A stretch of 48,813 bases of DNA from Minisyncoccota bacterium. GTDB taxonomy: Bacteria > Patescibacteriota > Microgenomatia > PFEM01 > JAFGMK01. The notes under the pieces are model-generated. The model was not told the origin of the DNA. It saw nothing but the letters and a program-made list of their open reading frames with translations, and did no database searches. Position numbers and translations under genes: made by a program. Shown here in pieces: positions 2,503 through 48,813 of this stretch (position 1 is the stretch's first letter; each line of letters opens with the position of its first letter). The stretch spans positions 101,942-150,754 of the forward strand of contig JAFGMK010000006.1 in NCBI GenBank assembly GCA_016927565.1, in the 5' to 3' direction.

Positions 2503-4758
2503 TTAACCTTTAAAATAATCTTTTAAGTAACGGCCGGTAATTGACAACTTGTTTTTGCTAACCTCCTTCGGAGTTCCTAAGGCAACAATCTCCCCTCCCT
2601 GCTCGCCCCCACCCGGACCTAAATCAACCAGCCAATCGCACTGGGCAATAACCTGGAGGTTGTGCTCAATCACAATCACCGTATTGCCCTCATCAACCAA
2701 TTTATTCAAAACTTCCAAAAGCTTGCCTATATCAGCCAAGTGGAGACCGGTGGTTGGTTCATCCAGGATATAAATTTGGCCTTTTTTTCTTAGCTGACTA
2801 ATCAGTTTTATCCGTTGAGCTTCGCCGCCGGAAAGGGTAGTTAAAGGCTGGCCCAATTCAAGATAATCCAGGCCGACTCGCTCTAAAAGAACCAATCTCT
2901 CTTTAATCCTTTCGTTTTCAAAATAATTTTTCGCCTCCGAAGCAGTCATCTTTAAAATATCAGCGATATTTCTACCCTGATGTTTAATCTTTAAAACTTC
3001 CTCACGATATCTTTGACCTTGACAGCGAGAACAGGTTATAACAACAGCTTCTAAAAAATTCATATCAATTTTCTTGACTCCCAGCCCTTGACATTGGGGG
3101 CAAGCTCCCCGAGAGTTAAAACTGAATAGGCCCGGCTGCCGGCCGGTTTTCAGAGCAAACTCTTGGCGGATAAGATCAAAAACCTTAATGTAAGTCGCCG
3201 GGTTAGAGCGGCTCATCCGGCCAACACTTTTTTGATCAACAACAACAGCTTCAGGATGGTCGCTGGCAAAACAATCGTTAATAAGGGTACTTTTACCGGA
3301 ACCGGCAACCCCGCTGACTCCAACAAAGACTCCCAGGGGGATATTAAGAGAAACATTTTTTAAATTGTGAAGAGAAGCATTATTTATTGACAAACTACCT
3401 CGGGGTCGGCGGTAATCTCCTTTGATCTTAGCTGTTTCCTTTTTTAGCCACAAACCAGTAATTGACTCAGGGCAATTTTTAAGACCGGCAACCTGACCTT
3501 GATAAACCAGCCGCCCGCCGAACCTGCCCGAACCAGGACCCAGATCAATAATCTGATCCGCAATTTTAATGATGGCCGGGTCGTGTTCGACAACGAAAAC
3601 AGTATTGCCTTTTTCTTTTAATTTTTTCAGAATCCCAATCAATTGAGTCATATCCTGGGAATGGAGGCCAATACTCGGTTCGTCCAGAATATAGATTTGT
3701 TCAATTAAATTACTCCCAAGCTGACGGGCCATTTTCACCCGCTGGGATTCTCCGCCGGACAAGCTATTAACGGACCGATCAAGGCTGAGATAACCAACGC
3801 CAATCTCAATCAAGTGAGAAAGACTCTCTTTTATTTTGACAACAATCGGATCGGCCAGAGGGTCAAAAATTTTTTTAAAAAAGGGCGGGAGGCGAATTAA
3901 TGGCAAAGCGACTAACTCGGGCAAAGTTTTACCAGCGACTTTAACTATCCGGGCCTTCTCGGTAAGCCGGGAACCGCCACAATCATCACAAGGAGCGCTT
4001 TTAAAGAACTTTGTTTCCCGATCCGAGGAGGAAAGCAGTAAGCCTCTTTTGTCCAATCGGCGTCTTTTAATGCCGGTTACAATCCCCTCAAAACTGTAGT
4101 GCTGAACAAAGCCCTTATCATCTTTTCCTGTCAACGGCACTGATTCGGAGAATAAAAGCTTATTTATCTCTTCTTGAGAGAAGTTTTTTAAGGGCCGGTC
4201 CATTTCGAAAAGACCACTAACCCTGAGAATGCTCCATCGGCGGCCGGCAACAGCGTATTCTGAATGTCTGATTGCTCCTTGATTAAGAGTTTTTTCCCAG
4301 TCTATAAGCCGATCTTGATTCACTACCAGCTTTTCTCCCAAACCCCGGCAAGTCGGGCACATCCCCTCGGCTGTATTAAAGGAGAACAAAGTTGAATCAC
4401 CAATTCTTGGCTGGCCACACCGGGAATACAAAAGTCTTAGATAGGTATAAATTTCGGTCACTGTTCCGACGGTTGATCTCAAATTTTGGCCCAATTTCTT
4501 TTGATCAATCATAATCGCCGGCGATAAATTGCAAATCTCGTCAACCTTGGGCCGGGAAAAAACGGGCAGTCTTTTACGGGCAAAAACACTTAAAGACTCC
4601 AAATACTGGCGCTGGGCTTCGGCGTAAATCGTATCAAAAACTAAAGACGATTTTCCCGATCCTGATAAACCGGTGAAAACGACCAGCCGGTTGCGCGGAA
4701 TCTCAAGAGTGAGGTTTCTCAGGTTGTTTTGGCAAGCATTTCTAATCTTGATCTTCAT
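2503..4758 (-). CDS. UvrA-like ABC ATPase (short UvrA2-type excinuclease subunit A homolog)
   Basis: Two ABC modules ([53 protein letters not shown]), CxxC pairs, about 751 aa; start [12 protein letters not shown] at 4758 preferred over the TTG at 4797, which lies in the -35 box. Confidence 0.9.
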
Positions 4759-4766
4759 AACTCGGA

Positions 4767-4797
4767 AGTATAAACTATGACGTAATGTTAGAGTCAA
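4767..4797 (-). promoter_or_regulatory. MerR-type promoter/operator of the uvrA-like gene
   Basis: Minus strand TTGACT-(19 bp)-TATACT with an imperfect dyad ACTCTAAC-ATTAC-GTCATAGT in the spacer; the 19-bp spacer and central dyad are MerR-family hallmarks. Confidence 0.8.
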
Positions 4798-4807
4798 GGA
4801 TTAGTTT

Positions 4808-5605
4808 ATGATGCTGAAAACTAAAGCCTTTGCCCAGCTTTGCGATACTACCAAAAGGACAATTATTTACTATGATGAGATCGGCCTCTTAAAACCTTTC
4901 CGCCGGCAGGGGTTCTACCGGCTTTATCAACCCCGACAAGTTTTAAAATATCAAAAGATTTACCTGCTAAAGTCTTTTGGCTTGTCCCTGCTTGAGATCA
5001 AAAAACATCTACCCTCCAACCGGAATCTGCTTGGAATGTTTTCTGAAAAAGAGAAAACTTTAAAAAACAAAAAAGAGGTCTTAGAAAAACGATTGGCCAA
5101 AATTAAAGAATTTACTACCAACCTTAAAAAGGGATTGCCCCTGATAGTTCCCAAGATCAAGGAAATTCAGCCTTATTCCTTTTACGCCTTGGAAAAATCT
5201 GGCCGCTATGCTGATATTTCCAGCCACCAGAAAGAAATTTTCGGAATGATCGGGGACTTTAAGTTTAAGCATGTCGGTTTAACCGTTTTCTACGATGAAG
5301 GCTATACTCCTCATCAAGCAAGGATGACAACCGGAGTATTGATTAAATCAAATAAAATAAAGAACTTCCCGGGAATAAAAATTATCAAAGTTCCCCGACA
5401 CCAAGCAATTGCTTATACTCATATCGGCTCATACAAGTATCTCTCTTACATTTGGCAATTTTTAAATCTTTTTTTCAAAAAAGAAAAATACCAACACCAC
5501 CCGCAGCTATTTGACCGGGAATTTTACATTGTTAATGGTGCCGGGAATAGGAACGAAGAAAATTTAGTAACTGAGTTGGTAATTCCAATCTTACCTAAGA
5601 ATTAA
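4808..5605 (+). CDS. MerR family transcriptional regulator with GyrI-like effector-binding domain
   Basis: N-terminal MerR HTH (TKRTIIYYDEIGLLKPFRRQGFYRLYQPRQVLKYQKIYLLKSFGLSLLEIKKHL), coiled coil, C-terminal GyrI-like domain. Confidence 0.88.
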   Translation: MMLKTKAFAQLCDTTKRTIIYYDEIGLLKPFRRQGFYRLYQPRQVLKYQKIYLLKSFGLSLLEIKKHLPSNRNLLGMFSEKEKTLKNKKEVLEKRLAKIKEFTTNLKKGLPLIVPKIKEIQPYSFYALEKSGRYADISSHQKEIFGMIGDFKFKHVGLTVFYDEGYTPHQARMTTGVLIKSNKIKNFPGIKIIKVPRHQAIAYTHIGSYKYLSYIWQFLNLFFKKEKYQHHPQLFDREFYIVNGAGNRNEENLVTELVIPILPKN

Positions 5606-7936: not shown

Positions 7937-8395
7937 TTGCATTTTAGTACTTTCCCAACCAGTTGTCGCAAAAAAAAACTAGAATTAACGAGGCAAAGAA
8001 ATTACCGCTCAAAGGCCGCGCCGATTATTCATCTCAAACAAGCCAAAGGGCAGAAAAACAGAGTCAGTATTTTACCGGCAGAATCTGTTGACAGTTTTAA
8101 AAAACTTATCGCAGGAAAAGCGGATAAAGACTTCGTCTTTGAAAGTGAAACAGGCGGAAAATCAACAACCCGGACTGCCCAAAAATTATTTGAAAATTCT
8201 TTAGAAAAAACCGGAATTAAAAAGAAAGCAACCTTTCGTAGCTTATGGTATAGTTTCGCTAACCACTTGCTGAAAAACGGAGTTGATGTAAGATATGTTC
8301 AGGGAATTGCTCGGCCAGCAAAACATCAGAACGTCCCGGCAATATGCAAAGGCAAAATTAACCCTAGTTTTGCAAATATCAAAAGGCCGTTATGA
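7937..8395 (+). pseudogene. Degenerate tyrosine recombinase (XerC/D-like catalytic-domain remnant)
   Basis: IIHLKQAKGQKNRVSILPAE...FVFESETGGKSTTRTAQKLFENSLEKTGIKKKATFRSLWYSFANHLLKNGVDVRYVQ matches the integrase catalytic domain, but HxLR is RSLW and the terminal GH...YTH region is lost; no N-terminal domain. Confidence 0.8.
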
Positions 8396-9336
8396 AAAGA
8401 ATTAAAATCCAAAAGAATGCTCTCCTGGCTCCTCTGACTACTTTCAGAATTGGCGGTCCGGCCAAATACCTGGTCACAGTTAAAAACCCGGAGGATTTGC
8501 TGGAGGCAATCAATTGGAGCAGAAAAAAAAGAACGGAATTTAGAGTTTTCGGGGGAGGCAGCAACTCCTTTTTCCCTGATCAAGGTCTTGATTGTCTGGT
8601 AATCAGGTTTTTAGGAGGCAGGATTAAAAAGGAAAAAGAGAAGCTCAGTGTGGACGGAGGGGTTTTGCTGGCAAAATTAATCATTGAATCAGTTGATAAT
8701 AGTCTGGAAGGATTGGAAAAATTGGCCGGAATTCCGGGAACGGTCGGCGGAGCAATAGCAGGCAATGCCGGAGCTTACGGTCAGACAATTTCAGACACTC
8801 TTCAGGAAGTGGAAATTTTTGACGGAGAAAAAAGGCGTTGGATGACTAAGAAAGATTGTTTTTTCGGTTACCGAGACAGCCTTTTCAAACATCAACCATT
8901 AGTAATCTTGAAAGCAATTTTCAAACTTAGACCGGGAGATAAATCAAACCTAAAAGAAGCTGTTCAAGCAATTATAGCCAAAAGACACCGGCAATATGGG
9001 CCCAATCCTCATTGTCCGGGCTGTTTTTTTAAAAATAAAAAGACAGCCGAAATCAATCCTAAAATCTTGAAAAAAATTGATCAAAAAAGAATTATCAAGG
9101 GAAAAATCCCGGCAGGATATCTTTTGGAAGCAGTTGGCGCCAAGGGAATGAGAGTTGGCGATATTCAAGTGGCCAACTTTCATGCTAACTTTCTGGTTAA
9201 TGTCCGTCAGGGAAAAGCTTCCGAGGTAAAAGAACTGGCAGAAGTTTTGAAAAATAAAGTTAAAGAAAGATTCGGAGTGAATTTGGAAGAAGAAGCGTTA
9301 TATTTTCAACCAATACCGGTCTTGACAAGGAATTAA
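8392..9336 (+). CDS. murB: UDP-N-acetylmuramate dehydrogenase
   Basis: TTFRIGGPAKYLV, FGGGSNSFFPDQG, LAGIPGTVGGAIAGNAGAYGQ, GCFFKN, AGYLLEAVGAKGMRVGD. Confidence 0.95.
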   Translation: MKRIKIQKNALLAPLTTFRIGGPAKYLVTVKNPEDLLEAINWSRKKRTEFRVFGGGSNSFFPDQGLDCLVIRFLGGRIKKEKEKLSVDGGVLLAKLIIESVDNSLEGLEKLAGIPGTVGGAIAGNAGAYGQTISDTLQEVEIFDGEKRRWMTKKDCFFGYRDSLFKHQPLVILKAIFKLRPGDKSNLKEAVQAIIAKRHRQYGPNPHCPGCFFKNKKTAEINPKILKKIDQKRIIKGKIPAGYLLEAVGAKGMRVGDIQVANFHANFLVNVRQGKASEVKELAEVLKNKVKERFGVNLEEEALYFQPIPVLTRN

Positions 9337-9350
9337 TCTCCTACTAAACT
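9322..9350 (+). promoter_or_regulatory. Promoter of DUF362 gene
   Basis: TTGACA-17-TAAACT; the -10 lies inside the 23-bp motif at 9338-9360. Confidence 0.75.
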
Positions 9351-9360
9351 AGTGGTAGTT
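9338..9360 (+). promoter_or_regulatory. Shared operator motif, copy 1
   Basis: CTCCTACTAAACTAGTGGTAGTT; 20/23 identical to 10373-10395. Confidence 0.75.
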
Positions 9361-9380
9361 AAAAATTTCGAAAGGAAAAA

Positions 9381-10262
9381 ATGAGTCTTGTCAGTTTAGT
9401 TAAAAATAATCAGTCATACCGAGGAACCCTGGCGGTTTTGAGCCCTCTGAAAAAAGAGCTGGAGACTAAAATTGCTTCTTTGGACAGAGTCGTAATTAAA
9501 ATCAATTTTGTCGTTACCCACACTAAGCTGGCTACCACTCCGGTAGAAACAGTCAAAGCTTTGATTGATTTCACTAAACCTTTTTTCAAAGGTCAATACT
9601 TAATTGCCGAGGAAGCAACAAGCGGTAAAACTCCGAATGCCTTTGAAGAGTATGGCTTTCTGGATTTAGCCCTTAATGATTCCCAGATAGAGTTGGTTGA
9701 TTCGGGAACCGTCCCGGGCAAAAAATTAACCATTACCCATCCCCGGGGAAAAATTCCTTTTTCTCTGGCAACCACCTACACTGAGGCGCCGTTTATTGCC
9801 TCTGTCTGCCGAGCCAAAACCCACGATACGGTAGTGGTCACTTTGGGGATAAAAAACCTGTTAGTCGGCGCCATTCAGGGAGGCTTCAGCCAAAGACAAA
9901 AAATCCACCAAGGTAATAACATTCACTGGATTATGAAGGAAATCGCCGATTATGTTTATCCTGATTTGGTAATTATTGACGGCGTGGAAGGAATGGAAGG
10001 CAATGGCCCGATCAGCGGAACGCCGATCAGGGCAGAATGGCTGGCCGCTTCTCTTGATGCTCTCGCGGCTGACTCGCTGGCAGCGAATTTAATGGGTTTT
10101 AAAAACCAGGACATCGGCTATTTTAATCTTTTAAAAGACGCAAACAAGGGCAAACTTTACCCCGAGGATAAGATCCAAGTTATCGGAGAGAAAGCTGAAT
10201 CTCTAATCGTTCCATTTAAACCCCATCGAAGTTTTGCCCGGCAGCGCCAGTGGCACCAATAA
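9381..10262 (+). CDS. DUF362 domain-containing protein
   Basis: VVIKINFVVTH...TTPVETVKALIDF...AKTHDTVVVTLGIKNLLVGAIQGGFSQRQKIH...VIIDGVEGMEGNGPISGTP. Confidence 0.88.
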   Translation: MSLVSLVKNNQSYRGTLAVLSPLKKELETKIASLDRVVIKINFVVTHTKLATTPVETVKALIDFTKPFFKGQYLIAEEATSGKTPNAFEEYGFLDLALNDSQIELVDSGTVPGKKLTITHPRGKIPFSLATTYTEAPFIASVCRAKTHDTVVVTLGIKNLLVGAIQGGFSQRQKIHQGNNIHWIMKEIADYVYPDLVIIDGVEGMEGNGPISGTPIRAEWLAASLDALAADSLAANLMGFKNQDIGYFNLLKDANKGKLYPEDKIQVIGEKAESLIVPFKPHRSFARQRQWHQ

Positions 10263-10356
10263 TCAATGATAATAAGTTTTTTTCATTTTCTTCCGGTTTT
10301 GATCAGGATATTTTTATTCTGATCCGGGCTTTTTTCAACAATTCCCCAATCGCCTC

Positions 10357-10385
10357 TTGACAAAAGAAATAACTTCTACTAAAGT
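10357..10385 (+). promoter_or_regulatory. Promoter of ferritin-like/superoxide reductase operon
   Basis: TTGACA-17-TAAAGT; the -10 lies inside the 23-bp operator. Confidence 0.78.
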
Positions 10386-10395
10386 AGTAGTAGTT
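10373..10395 (+). promoter_or_regulatory. Shared operator motif, copy 2
   Basis: CTTCTACTAAAGTAGTAGTAGTT containing the perfect dyad CTACTA-AAG-TAGTAG; same offset from the -35 as copy 1. Confidence 0.8.
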
Positions 10396-10419: not shown

Positions 10420-10698
10420 ATGCTATCCCAATTACCGGTTAATTTAAGCAAAGTTAAGAAAGAACATCTTAATCGGGAAATTTTAAGAGCAGGAATGATC
10501 GCCGAGTTGGATGCGGTCAGTTTTTATGAACAGCTGGCGGCAATGACGGATGACGAGAGATTAAAAGAAGTTCTCCTGGACATTGCCAAAGAAGAAAAAA
10601 CCCATCTGGGCGAGTTTCAAACTATGCTTTTAAGATATGATTCGGAACAGATTGAGGAATTAAAGAAAGGCCAGAAAGAAATTGAAGAATTAATTTAG
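10420..10698 (+). CDS. Small ferritin-like / rubrerythrin-family protein (encapsulated-ferritin-like)
   Basis: REILRAGMIAELDAVSFYEQLAAMTDDERLKEVLLDIAKEEKTHLGEFQTMLL; E...EExxH iron-ligand pattern in a two-helix 92-aa protein; SD AGGAGGT. Confidence 0.82.
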   Translation: MLSQLPVNLSKVKKEHLNREILRAGMIAELDAVSFYEQLAAMTDDERLKEVLLDIAKEEKTHLGEFQTMLLRYDSEQIEELKKGQKEIEELI

Positions 10699-10710: not shown

Positions 10711-11097
10711 ATGACACAACTCAGACAAATCTATAAATGCGATATTTGCGGCAACGTGGTGGAAGTACTCCATCCGGGCGCTGGCGAGCTCGTCTGCTGC
10801 GGCCAGCCGATGCGGCTTCTCGAGCCCAAAACCCGAGATGAAGGTCAGGAAAAACACATCCCGGTCGTTGAAAAAACTGAAAAAGGAATTAAAGTCAAAG
10901 TCGGCTCAATCCCTCACCCGATGGAAGAAAGTCATTTTATCCAGTGGATTCAAGCCACGGCTGACGGCAAAACTTATTTTTCTTTCTTAAAACCCGGCGA
11001 ACCGGCTGAAGCGGAATTTCCCATTTCAGCTAATCAAGTCACAATTTTGGAGTACTGCAATCTTCACGGGCTTTGGCAGGAGCAAGACAAGGCTTGA
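10711..11097 (+). CDS. dfx: Desulfoferrodoxin / superoxide reductase
   Basis: N-terminal desulforedoxin CDICG...CCGQPM; EKHIPVVEK; HPMEESHFIQWIQ; EYCNLHGLW. Confidence 0.95.
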   Translation: MTQLRQIYKCDICGNVVEVLHPGAGELVCCGQPMRLLEPKTRDEGQEKHIPVVEKTEKGIKVKVGSIPHPMEESHFIQWIQATADGKTYFSFLKPGEPAEAEFPISANQVTILEYCNLHGLWQEQDKA

Positions 11098-11100
11098 CAG

Positions 11101-11132
11101 AAAAAAGAAAGTCCTGTAGACTTTCTTTTCAG
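11101..11132 (+). terminator. Intrinsic terminator after dfx
   Basis: AAAGAAAGTC-CTGTA-GACTTTCTTTTC. Confidence 0.8.
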
Positions 11133-45349: not shown

Positions 45350-46354
45350 TTAGGTTTTGGTTAACGACCATCGTGTCAATAATTTCTTTAAGTCCAGACT
45401 ATTTTTAACAGCGGTCCAGCTTGAAGCTAATTGGTATTTATTAAAGCCTCTCAAAACCAGATAAAGCTGAAACATGATTTTTTCCGGCAAAAGGTAAACC
45501 AAAATCATCTGGGCCAAAAGAACAAACCAGCCAATCAGGCTGGCCTGATAGCCAAACCTGCCGACAGCCCGAAACCGGGTCCTTAGGGTATTTTTAAACA
45601 TCCGCCGGACATGGATCAGGGAATCATTTTTTTCGTGAATCCGGTAATAAATCAGTTTTTGAGGCAGGTTGGAAAACTTAGCTCCCCGGCTGATCATCCT
45701 CATCAGAGTGTGATAGTCATTATTAGTCGGATTGGCGGTCGAGTAAAGATTTTTTTTGCTTGGCAAATGAGACCGGCGAAACATCAGGCTCGGGTTAATC
45801 ATCGGGTGCCAAGAGAAGTAAGCCCGGTAAATATCTTCATGCTTGAGGGGGACTTTTTTTTCACCAACAACCTGACCTTGACTATTGATGACCTCGGCAT
45901 TAGTTCCCAGGACTGTCAGTTCCGGGTGTTTTTGAAAGAAATTTATCTGGGTTTGAATCCGTTCGGGCTTAGCGATATCATCAGCGTCCATCCGGGCGAT
46001 AAATTCCCCCCGGCAGTGTTGGTAGGCAACATTGGCGGCGGAATCCCCGCCCTGGCCAAGGTTTTGGCTGAGGCGGATCAGTCTGATTTTTTGCGGATAC
46101 AGTTTTTTAAACTCGACCAGGATCCGGCCGGTTTTGTCAGTTGAGGCATCGTCAACAATGACAATTTCTAAGTTCGGATAGGTTTGGTTTAACAAGCTCT
46201 CAATTGCCTCCACGACATAACCGGCCGAGTTGTAGACCGGCATAATGACGGAAACTAGGGGTTGCAAAATCACCCCAGGGGTGTCTGCAGATTTCACCCC
46301 TGGGGTGTTTGACCCACGGGGCGAAAAGCTAGTAGCTGATCTTTCTTTTTTCAT
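45350..46354 (-). CDS. Family 2 glycosyltransferase with repeat-derived N-terminal extension
   Basis: PLVSVIMPVYNSAGYVVEAIESLLNQTYPNLEIVIVDDASTDKTG, FIARMDADDIAKPERIQ; first ~33 aa encoded by the palindromic repeat. Confidence 0.93.
   Translation of the reverse strand: MKKERSATSFSPRGSNTPGVKSADTPGVILQPLVSVIMPVYNSAGYVVEAIESLLNQTYPNLEIVIVDDASTDKTGRILVEFKKLYPQKIRLIRLSQNLGQGGDSAANVAYQHCRGEFIARMDADDIAKPERIQTQINFFQKHPELTVLGTNAEVINSQGQVVGEKKVPLKHEDIYRAYFSWHPMINPSLMFRRSHLPSKKNLYSTANPTNNDYHTLMRMISRGAKFSNLPQKLIYYRIHEKNDSLIHVRRMFKNTLRTRFRAVGRFGYQASLIGWFVLLAQMILVYLLPEKIMFQLYLVLRGFNKYQLASSWTAVKNSLDLKKLLTRWSLTKT
46271..46307. repeat. Double-palindrome repeat
   Basis: CACCCCAGGGGTG-TCTGCAGATTT-CACCCCTGGGGTG, perfect 13-bp arms, each quasi-palindromic. 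Confidence 0.85.
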
Positions 46355-46473
46355 TTTTTTAAGACGTTTTTAATGCTGACTAAACCAGACTTTGATCAGA
46401 TCAAAAAATTAAAGACTTGCCTAGTAAGGATGAGTTTTACCAGTTTAATTTTTTAAATTGCTTCTGCATCCCT

Positions 46474-46501
46474 CACCCCTGGGGTGTTTTACCCGCGGGG
46501 T
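46474..46501. repeat. CACCCCTGGGGTG palindrome followed by ACCCGCGGGGT
   Basis: Same core as 46295-46307, followed by TTTTACCTGGAAGGTGTTTTGTC, which is related to the 48502 repeat. Confidence 0.75.
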
Positions 46502-46732
46502 AAAGAATAGTTATTCTTTTACCTGGAAGGTGTTTTGTCATTCAATTGTTAAAAAGCAACCTCAGGTCACAAGACCTTGCTTATGAGCTGGGGTTGTTGG
46601 CATACGGTTTGGCTTCTCTTTTAAATTTAATTTTTTCTCTTGTTTGTTCCCGCGCTAACGCGGGGTGAAAAAGTGGTTTTAAAGAGAAGCCGTCTCACCT
46701 TGCCTGCTGGTTAGGCAGACAAGGTGAGAGGC

Positions 46733-46770
46733 GAAAAAGAGCTGAACTGCAAACCCCGCAGCTCTTTTTC
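46733..46770. terminator. Bidirectional terminator-like hairpin
   Basis: GAAAAAGAGCTG-(14 nt)-CAGCTCTTTTTC. Confidence 0.75.
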
Positions 46771-46772
46771 TT

Positions 46773-46796
46773 GATCATGACGCCATTGTCATGATC
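46773..46796. repeat. Perfect 9-bp inverted repeat at the edge of the high-GC island
   Basis: GATCATGAC-GCCATT-GTCATGATC. Confidence 0.75.
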
Positions 46797-46827
46797 CTAG
46801 TCCCCCGGGGCTGGGGACGGAAAAGAC

Positions 46828-48177
46828 CTAGCGGCCTCCGATGGTGCCGAACATGCCGGCGGGCCAGGCCAGGAGACCGCGCGCTTGCAGGTCCTCCACG
46901 GTCAGGAGCGGGACTCCTGGGTTTGCCGCCTGCAACTCGGCGAGCTTGTTTTGGATCTGCCCGCAGCAGCCGAGGTGGATCACCCAGTATTCGCCGCCGG
47001 CAAGGACATCCCAACCACCCACGCGGTAGGGCCAGACGACCAAGAACTGGTCCTGACTCTGACCGGGTTGGTTAGTCCAGTGGAGGCCTACCACGAGCCC
47101 TTCGGGGATCTCCCAGGGGATGTCCACCTCAGGATCTCGACGAGCCCAGCTAAAGCCAGTCAGGCAGCTTTCTGGGTTATGGATCAACCCCATAGCGGCG
47201 AGTCCCTCAAAAGTGACAGGCGGAAGCGGGGAGGCGTCAAAGTCCGCCTGAACCTGGGTCTCACAGCCCAGAGCACGGCCCCAGTAAGCGCCACCACCAA
47301 GGATGTGCAAAACATCCGGATAAGCTGCCGGGTCAAGATTGACCACAGCGAGCTTATGCAGCGTTTGCGACTTCCCGTGCATATTCGTCCAGACTTCCAC
47401 GAATGCCGGGTTGGTAGTGGTGATTCCGAAGGCAGCGCATCCATTAATTGGCTCGACTTGGTCTTCCCAAATCACTGAGCAGGGCGCCAACGTCGGCGTG
47501 AGCGTAGCCGTTACCGTCGGCGTCAAGGTGGCCGTCGGAGTAACGGTCGGGGTGATCGTGGCCGTGGCCGTGGGGGTCATCGTTGCCGTGGCCGTGACCG
47601 TCGGGGAGACAGTCGAGGTCGGGGTGACCGTGACCGTCAGGGTCGGGGTGACCGTGGCCGTGGGGGTGATTGTCGCCGTCGGCGTCGGCATGAGCGTCGC
47701 CGTCGGCTCAGTTGTGGCCGTGGGAGACCCCGGTGTGCCCTCGGGAAGCTGATAGAGAACCAGCGGCAGGGCAACGCGCTCACCGCGGACTACGATCCTG
47801 ACCTGGTCAACACCGCCTAGCGACCCGTCGCTGGCGACGAGGCGCAGCACATAAGTGCCAGCGACAGAAAACCACGCCCTCGTCACGGGCGATGTTCGGT
47901 CCTCCCAGGTGACCGTGCCAGGGCCGCTGACCTGCTGCCACTGAGAAGTGACTTGCCCGGGGGGGTTCGGCCGGCCGTCGTCAGTGACGGCACCGCTCAG
48001 CTGAGCGGCGTTCGGCCAAACGATCTCCCGGTTCGGCCCGGCAGAGACCGATGGTGGGGCGTTGAGGGGGGAGTCCCCCGCGCCGCCCACGGGCGAAACT
48101 GGCAGCAGGATTGCCACCAGCACGATTGTCGCTAACGCCACCAGGCCAGCGACAAAAACCCATTTTTGCGATTTCAT
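46828..48177 (-). CDS. Secreted/anchored protein with PKD-like domain, Pro-Thr repeat linker and C-terminal domain; Chloroflexota-like
   Basis: Signal/TM N-terminus, PPSVSAGPNREIVWPNAAQLSGAVTDDG...GTYVLRLVASDG, then PTATxTPT repeats; high GC relative to neighbours. Confidence 0.85.
   Translation of the reverse strand: MKSQKWVFVAGLVALATIVLVAILLPVSPVGGAGDSPLNAPPSVSAGPNREIVWPNAAQLSGAVTDDGRPNPPGQVTSQWQQVSGPGTVTWEDRTSPVTRAWFSVAGTYVLRLVASDGSLGGVDQVRIVVRGERVALPLVLYQLPEGTPGSPTATTEPTATLMPTPTATITPTATVTPTLTVTVTPTSTVSPTVTATATMTPTATATITPTVTPTATLTPTVTATLTPTLAPCSVIWEDQVEPINGCAAFGITTTNPAFVEVWTNMHGKSQTLHKLAVVNLDPAAYPDVLHILGGGAYWGRALGCETQVQADFDASPLPPVTFEGLAAMGLIHNPESCLTGFSWARRDPEVDIPWEIPEGLVVGLHWTNQPGQSQDQFLVVWPYRVGGWDVLAGGEYWVIHLGCCGQIQNKLAELQAANPGVPLLTVEDLQARGLLAWPAGMFGTIGGR
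47490..47730. repeat. Degenerate tandem repeat encoding the P-T-A/V-T linker
   Basis: Recurring GTGGCCGTGGGGGTGATCGT / GCCGTCGGCGT units. Confidence 0.8.
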
Positions 48178-48501
48178 TGTTCCTCCTCGGAACGAGGCCC
48201 TTGCTTTGGCGCAGGTTTCGACCTGCTAGGGCCGGCGGACCCTTCCCTCCCGTCGCGCTACGCTTTTATAGCCCCTGACTCCATATAGGAGGGGCACGCT
48301 GAAACACGCGGTCGGGACGGAGTCCTGGTAAGTTTTCTCTCGTCCAAAGGACGAGAAGCTTTATAAAGCAATTCAAGCCCTTACCCAGAGCGCTTGATAG
48401 ATAAAGAGGTAAACACCTGCAAGGCGGTCGCGGAGCCGCGTTTGTCGCGGCGGAGTCGACCTCCTTGGAGGTGAATTAGCAGAAAGCGCTTCTTGTTAAC
48501 T

Positions 48502-48538
48502 CACCTTCCAGGTGTAATATGCAGACACCTGGAAGGTG
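48502..48538. repeat. Double-palindrome repeat, perfect 14-bp arms
   Basis: CACCTTCCAGGTGT-AATATGCAG-ACACCTGGAAGGTG. Confidence 0.85.
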
Positions 48539-48632
48539 TTTTGTCGCCACCTTCTTCCGAGGTGTTTGGGCGCTTCCTGATTCCTTATCTACCTAACGCT
48601 CCGGGTAAGTTTGACTTACCACAAGGAGGAGA

Positions 48633-48725
48633 ATGTTTGTGAATATTGTCGCGCTTATCAAATCTTTAGAGCGTAACCGCTCATCACACCTCCGAGGAGT
48701 CCGTTCGGACACCTCGCAGGAGTAA
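48633..48725 (+). CDS. Possible small ORF (ATG 48633 or GTG 48639)
   Basis: SD AAGGAGGAG before MFVNIVALIKSLERNRSSHLRGVRSDTSQE; C-terminus encoded by a palindromic repeat. Confidence 0.3.
   Translation: MFVNIVALIKSLERNRSSHLRGVRSDTSQE
48693..48716. repeat. Long hairpin
   Basis: CGAGG-A-GTCCG-TT-CGGAC-A-CCTCG. Confidence 0.75.
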
Positions 48726-48813
48726 TTTCGCTCTTTTTGCCGCTCCCGGTGAGTATTTTTGGTAAATATAAAAAAGCGCATTTTCACCTGGCCACCCCAC
48801 ACTCCAAGGAGGC

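Follow-up and report, generated by a model that had tools for sequence, protein, structure and literature searches.

Organisation of the locus

The window analysed here, a stretch of 48,813 nucleotides from a Minisyncoccota bacterium genome, carries a gene for a DUF362 protein and, downstream of it, genes for an encapsulated-ferritin-like protein and a desulfoferrodoxin (superoxide reductase, SOR). The features of the locus are given below, together with the regulator gene found on another contig (last line).

9322..9327, plus strand: -35 box TTGACA of the DUF362 promoter, within the final murB codons (from sequence and geometry)
9336..9360, plus strand: operator 1, 25-bp dyad ATCTCCTACTAAACTAGTGGTAGTT, covering the -10 box; 2 of 16 positions off the consensus; PWM score 24.5
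9345..9350, plus strand: DUF362 promoter, -10 box TAAACT at a 17-nt spacing to its -35 box
9381..10262, plus strand: gene for a DUF362 protein, 293 aa, predicted Rrf2 target (PF04015, E=1.3e-32)
10357..10362, plus strand: -35 box TTGACA of the ferritin-like/SOR operon promoter (from sequence and geometry)
10371..10395, plus strand: operator 2, 25-bp dyad AACTTCTACTAAAGTAGTAGTAGTT, covering the -10 box; no mismatches to the consensus; PWM score 29.8
10380..10385, plus strand: -10 box TAAAGT of the ferritin-like/SOR operon promoter (from sequence and geometry)
10420..10698, plus strand: gene for an encapsulated-ferritin-like protein, 92 aa (PF22277, 2e-7; EncB_fam, 6.4e-18; PDB 5n5e, 4.5e-22)
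10711..11097, plus strand: gene for desulfoferrodoxin (SOR), 128 aa (TIGR00320, 195 bits, cut-off 147; PDB 1dfx, 1.7e-47)
11107..11129, plus strand: probable intrinsic terminator of the SOR operon, GAAAGTC-CTGTA-GACTTTC-TTTT (read from the sequence)
G000:C27:71736-72146, minus strand: gene for an Rrf2-family regulator (PF02082, 3.6e-33), with a copy of the operator core in its own promoter

The desulfoferrodoxin harbors both iron domains and scores above the cut-offs of TIGR00320, TIGR00332 and TIGR00319, in agreement with its assignment as a superoxide reductase. The 92-residue ferritin-like protein is most similar to the ferritin-like portion of the P. furiosus (Pyrococcus) encapsulin; it lies above the cut-off of PF22277 (31.1 vs 27) and below that of the NCBIfam EncB_fam model (64.9 vs 90), and no encapsulin gene was found among the immediate neighbours of its own gene. 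Considering the probable terminator at 11107-11129, the ferritin-like and SOR genes look like a two-gene operon. Using Foldseek, the fold model of the DUF362 protein was aligned to LarA-type nickel-pincer racemases (E 2e-5 to 7e-4, TM 0.4-0.5); the alignment of this predicted structure is weak and shallow, and may offer a lead on DUF362 function.

Other parts of the window deserve a brief description. A truncated tyrosine recombinase (7937-8395; PF00589, 45 bits) lies immediately before murB, with a long region that has no clear gene ahead of it, and is a mobile element remnant. By eye only, a MerR-like regulator gene (4808-5605) was recognised beside a UvrA-like ORF (2503-4797, minus strand). 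At positions 46001-48813, the end of contig C5, the GC content climbs from approximately 0.43 to 0.57, and an ORF there (46828-48177, minus strand) contains Thr/Pro repeats and, by eye, a PKD-like region, unlike the rest of the window; this segment is possibly of foreign origin, or else the chimeric end of a contig.

Two promoters share a probable 25-bp operator

The initial annotation had reported two similar 23-mers at these promoters, placed where a bound repressor would be expected to block RNA polymerase. Both are present, at 9338-9360 and 10373-10395, and they are identical at 20 of 23 positions (differing at positions 3, 12 and 17). Each begins 16 nt past the first base of the TTGACA box, and the -10 boxes, both 17 nt from the -35, lie under them. 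The full unit is a 25-bp dyad, AACTnCTACN7GTAGnAGTT, of which the 23-mers are the cores, and both dyads have their centre at the -10 box of a promoter whose -35 is TTGACA. The shared operator stands as two dyads of one consensus, each containing the core CTACTANNNTAGTRG, and their coverage of the -10 boxes is a placement that should interfere with the polymerase.

The core occurs exactly three times in the 1.19-Mb genome, each time in a promoter, against an expectation of 0.18 per strand from base composition, so that the genome-wide frequency is well above background. Eight simulated genomes contained no core match, and none of the dinucleotide shuffles of the window matched the operator pattern. 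A PWM trained only on the Rrf2 promoters of relatives, this genome excluded, gives these two sites the two highest scores of the window, and the next score is 8.6. The third copy of the core is located on contig C27, in the promoter of the Rrf2-family regulator, around 40 nt upstream of the gene. The regulon, originally described as comprising two promoters, therefore includes both of these and at least one more. The remark that no regulator gene is adjacent also agrees with our results, the Rrf2 being encoded on a different contig, and the common operator supports the predicted co-regulation of the iron/oxygen-stress operon with the DUF362 gene. An operator-like match at C9:5883 (22.7 bits) falls inside a dCMP-deaminase-like ORF and was treated as chance; two near-matches to the core, at C6:36189 and C20:81710, were also discarded, both being inside ORFs.

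The Rrf2-family regulator

The C27 protein is the single Rrf2/IscR-family gene product detected in the genome, and exceeds the superfamily cut-offs of PF02082 (115 bits, cut-off 30) and TIGR00738 (111 bits, cut-off 73.3). Its AlphaFold2 model (pLDDT 84.6) shows a winged helix-turn-helix followed by a long dimerisation helix, and Foldseek matches this fold to CymR, RsrR and IscR. The cysteine cluster ECLQKEASCPWSGMC sits where IscR binds its [2Fe-2S] cluster: the C27 residues are C92, C99 and C105 (A1 numbering) and those of IscR are C92, C98, C104 and H107, the last with no obvious counterpart. Two of these cysteines are invariant among 13 aligned relatives and the third is present in most, and their spacing differs by family, being CX6CX5C here, CX2CX5C in G001-G003 and of other kinds elsewhere. 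Given that the three cysteines occupy the place of the IscR cluster ligands, the protein probably carries an Fe-S cluster, judging from its sequence. A contig search with a four-member Rrf2 alignment found three named relatives (Candidatus Shapirobacteria, a CPR/Patescibacteria lineage of the class Microgenomatia) and a Virgibacillus homolog.

Conservation of the operator at Rrf2 promoters

Relatives were sampled at the order and class level, none of them from the same genus or family, and the 100 nt upstream of 26 Rrf2 loci were scored against the 16-position consensus of the 25-mer. An operator matching at least 12 of 16 positions precedes 20 of the 26 genes, compared with 0.3% of control segments. 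As this consensus was partly derived from the same relatives, the test was rerun with a 12-position core taken from this genome alone, and 16 of the 26 loci reached at least 9 of 12 positions, compared with 1.4% of controls. Operator and regulator were both tested for in 137 genomes; all 13 with an intergenic operator carry an Rrf2, which is found in 46 of the 137 overall (hypergeometric 2e-7). In six genomes (G193, G238, G281, G324, G044 and G253) every match is intragenic and there is no clear Rrf2; three others with intragenic matches (G210, G292 and G100) possess an Rrf2. In G344 and G361, two members of one genus, operators precede superoxide dismutase (SOD) and other genes (L091, L092, L102, L103) and no Rrf2 was detected; a missing contig or a diverged regulator is a possible explanation. 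G028 has an SOD with a good operator, yet no Rrf2 match.

Genes under the operator across the class

We searched 374 genomes of the class for the operator. Exact 25-mers occur seven times, always upstream of Rrf2 (G001, G133, G346), of Fe/Mn SOD (G275, G339, G064) or of the SOR operon described here; the site in G346 also lies ahead of a divergent gene for an FNR-like oxidoreductase. When one mismatch is allowed the pattern is found in 41 places, compared with 28 for a reversed-pattern control, and since these counts alone are modest, the case for the operator rests on its position. Sites with one mismatch precede SODs (G361, G344), nitroreductases (G190, G275), a LUD-domain protein (G164) and SufC (G144, in a cluster with SufBD and Rrf2), as well as a few less interpretable genes that include a radical SAM protein, a RibD-C protein and DUF2207. 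Further operators, mostly weaker, precede SODs in G052, G190, G144, G164, G026, G081, G090, G028 and G137. The G144 cluster (L191; G144:C44:1-6000) has the order operator, SufC, SufBD, MGDG_synth/glycosyltransferase, Rrf2 and DUF1858, and is a minimal Suf system clustered with its own regulator.

Conservation at orthologs of the target genes is uneven, being strong upstream of Rrf2 and also seen upstream of SOD in relatives, but lacking upstream of SOR orthologs: no operator was found there in four class members, three of them with an Rrf2, or at the 28 SOR loci found across the phylum. Upstream of DUF362 the operator is absent from the two close orthologs, in G043 and G104, which say little because both genomes lack a clear Rrf2. 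The links of SOR and DUF362 to the operator come from this genome only. No Fe/Mn SOD was found in it, and for this reason a swap of enzyme is the natural reading, SOR probably replacing SOD within the regulon of this genome.

The position of the operator relative to the promoter differs between the predicted target genes and Rrf2. For target genes (SOR, DUF362, six SODs and the LUD-domain protein), counted from the first -35 base, the 25-mer starts after 14-15 nt and has its centre at the -10. In the promoter of Rrf2 itself, here and in nine relatives, it starts about 25 (25-26) nt from that base, so that only its left arm reaches into the -10 and the remainder covers the start site. The two offsets differ by approximately one helical turn. 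Some loci have no recognisable -35 in this comparison, and three depart from the rule: L011 (Rrf2, 14), L106 (Rrf2, 17) and L150 (SOD, 10).

Comparison with known Rrf2 systems

As long as its [2Fe-2S] cluster is reduced, IscR represses type-1 promoters, and it is released upon oxidation of the cluster (PMC12594620); in Pseudomonas aeruginosa its type-1 sites, with the motif ATASYYGACTRWWWYAGTCRRSTAT, overlap the RNA polymerase site (PMC3899308). The C27 protein resembles the Escherichia coli and P. aeruginosa IscR in its Rrf2 fold, the three cysteines in the same region and predicted autoregulation (PMC3899308, PMC12594620), and its presumed sites resemble the type-1 sites in being 25-bp dyads with an ACTA-N3-TAGT core in the same register and in overlapping the promoter (PMC3899308). 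However, it fails the TIGR02010 equivalog model (75.4 bits, cut-off 207.55), no isc genes lie beside it in the stretch read, its operator has outer arms AACT/AGTT and inner arms CTAC/GTAG, and the genes that it is predicted to control here belong to superoxide defence and iron handling. RisR of Myxococcus xanthus is also an Rrf2 repressor, acting on a GAC-N7-GTC dyad over the isc and suf promoters (PMC9973013); the N7-centred palindrome over the promoter is common to both systems, whereas the half-site here is TAC/GTA and the control of isc and suf belongs to RisR. RsrR and NsrR share the Rrf2 fold, and their DNA complexes have been solved (RsrR with the rsrR promoter, PDB 6y42; [4Fe-4S]-NsrR with the hmpA1 operator, PDB 7b0c), but identity is only 22-24% and the score of the NsrR model is far under its cut-off.

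Proposed mechanism and alternative explanations

In our view it is highly likely that both window sites are bound by an autoregulated Rrf2 repressor, probably an Fe-S-binding one, which blocks the promoters and is released under oxidative or Fe-S stress. Repression by a cluster-bearing dimer is the most likely form of this mechanism, given that the operator shares the length and core register of IscR type-1 sites. The C27 Rrf2 dimer would bind the 25-bp dyad, of IscR type-1 geometry, and cover the -10 of the DUF362, ferritin-like/SOR and own promoters, excluding RNA polymerase. Oxygen, superoxide or iron shortage would then oxidise or remove the cluster, and the release of Rrf2 may induce superoxide reductase, the ferritin-like iron-handling protein, DUF362 and Rrf2 itself. 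The SOR orthologs that lack the operator, and the operators of G344, G361 and G028, where no Rrf2 was detected, weigh against this reading.

An unlikely alternative is that the same protein binds these operators without a cluster and senses thiol oxidation or cysteine status, as CymR of Bacillus and Staphylococcus does. CymR is the nearest solved structure by sequence (2.3e-22) and by fold (TM 0.88), the C27 protein scores higher with the NCBIfam CymR model than with the IscR model (107 against 75 bits, neither reaching its cut-off), and the cysteine spacing varies among families. The 107 bits fall short of the 195 of the CymR equivalog (NF047409), and the gene sets differ. The cysteine-rich stretch has no counterpart in the CymR alignment, which, like the missing counterpart of H107, counts against the cluster-bearing reading. 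The conservation pattern of the cysteines described above speaks against cluster-free sensing, and the presence of SufC/SufBD and superoxide defence in the regulon suits Fe-S sensing.

It is very improbable that the window sites are bound by some other regulator, whether BlaI/MecI, Fur/PerR or a further one. The TAGTAG-armed dyad loosely resembles BlaI-type operators, and a BlaI/MecI repressor had been the first guess; this was abandoned, as the genome has no PF03965 protein (0 matches) and the regulator identified is Rrf2/IscR-like. The third exact copy in the Rrf2 promoter, and the way in which the pattern tracks Rrf2 across the class, argue against any such candidate. That the similarity of the sites reflects chance or promoter strength is scarcely conceivable: the dyad is A+T-rich and contains the -10, but shuffled and simulated sequences gave no match, and the pattern recurs before Rrf2 and SOD in many families. 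A function in RNA, as an attenuator or riboswitch stem, is suggested by inverted repeats close to the transcription start but is extremely improbable, for the window dyads span the -10 and end near the predicted start, and would be mostly untranscribed.

Returning to repression by an Fe-S-binding Rrf2, we give about even weight to a broader proposal, namely that a single dedicated, autoregulated and redox-responsive Rrf2 with its own 25-bp operator may operate throughout the Microgenomatia, where it would control the superoxide-removing enzyme of each lineage (SOD in several families, here SOR and an encapsulated-type ferritin) together with Suf and redox genes, replace SoxR/OxyR/PerR and have its own operator shifted by one helical turn.

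Significance

The literature describes the oxidative-stress response of CPR/Patescibacteria as largely unknown; in a survey of groundwater genomes, SOD genes were present but oxyR, soxR, soxS and rpoS were not found (PMC8672522). Our literature search returned no paper joining Patescibacteria with Rrf2, and none relevant to a CPR operator or regulon. The regulator family is known; the operator and the gene set are new, and come from a lineage in which little is known of redox regulation (PMC8672522). They suggest a way in which bacteria reportedly devoid of the usual oxidative-stress regulators may govern their defences. The appearance of a DUF362 gene under a predicted superoxide/iron regulator gives a handle on this protein, and the regulator, its operator and the gene set together make redox regulation in these mostly uncultured bacteria testable in vitro.
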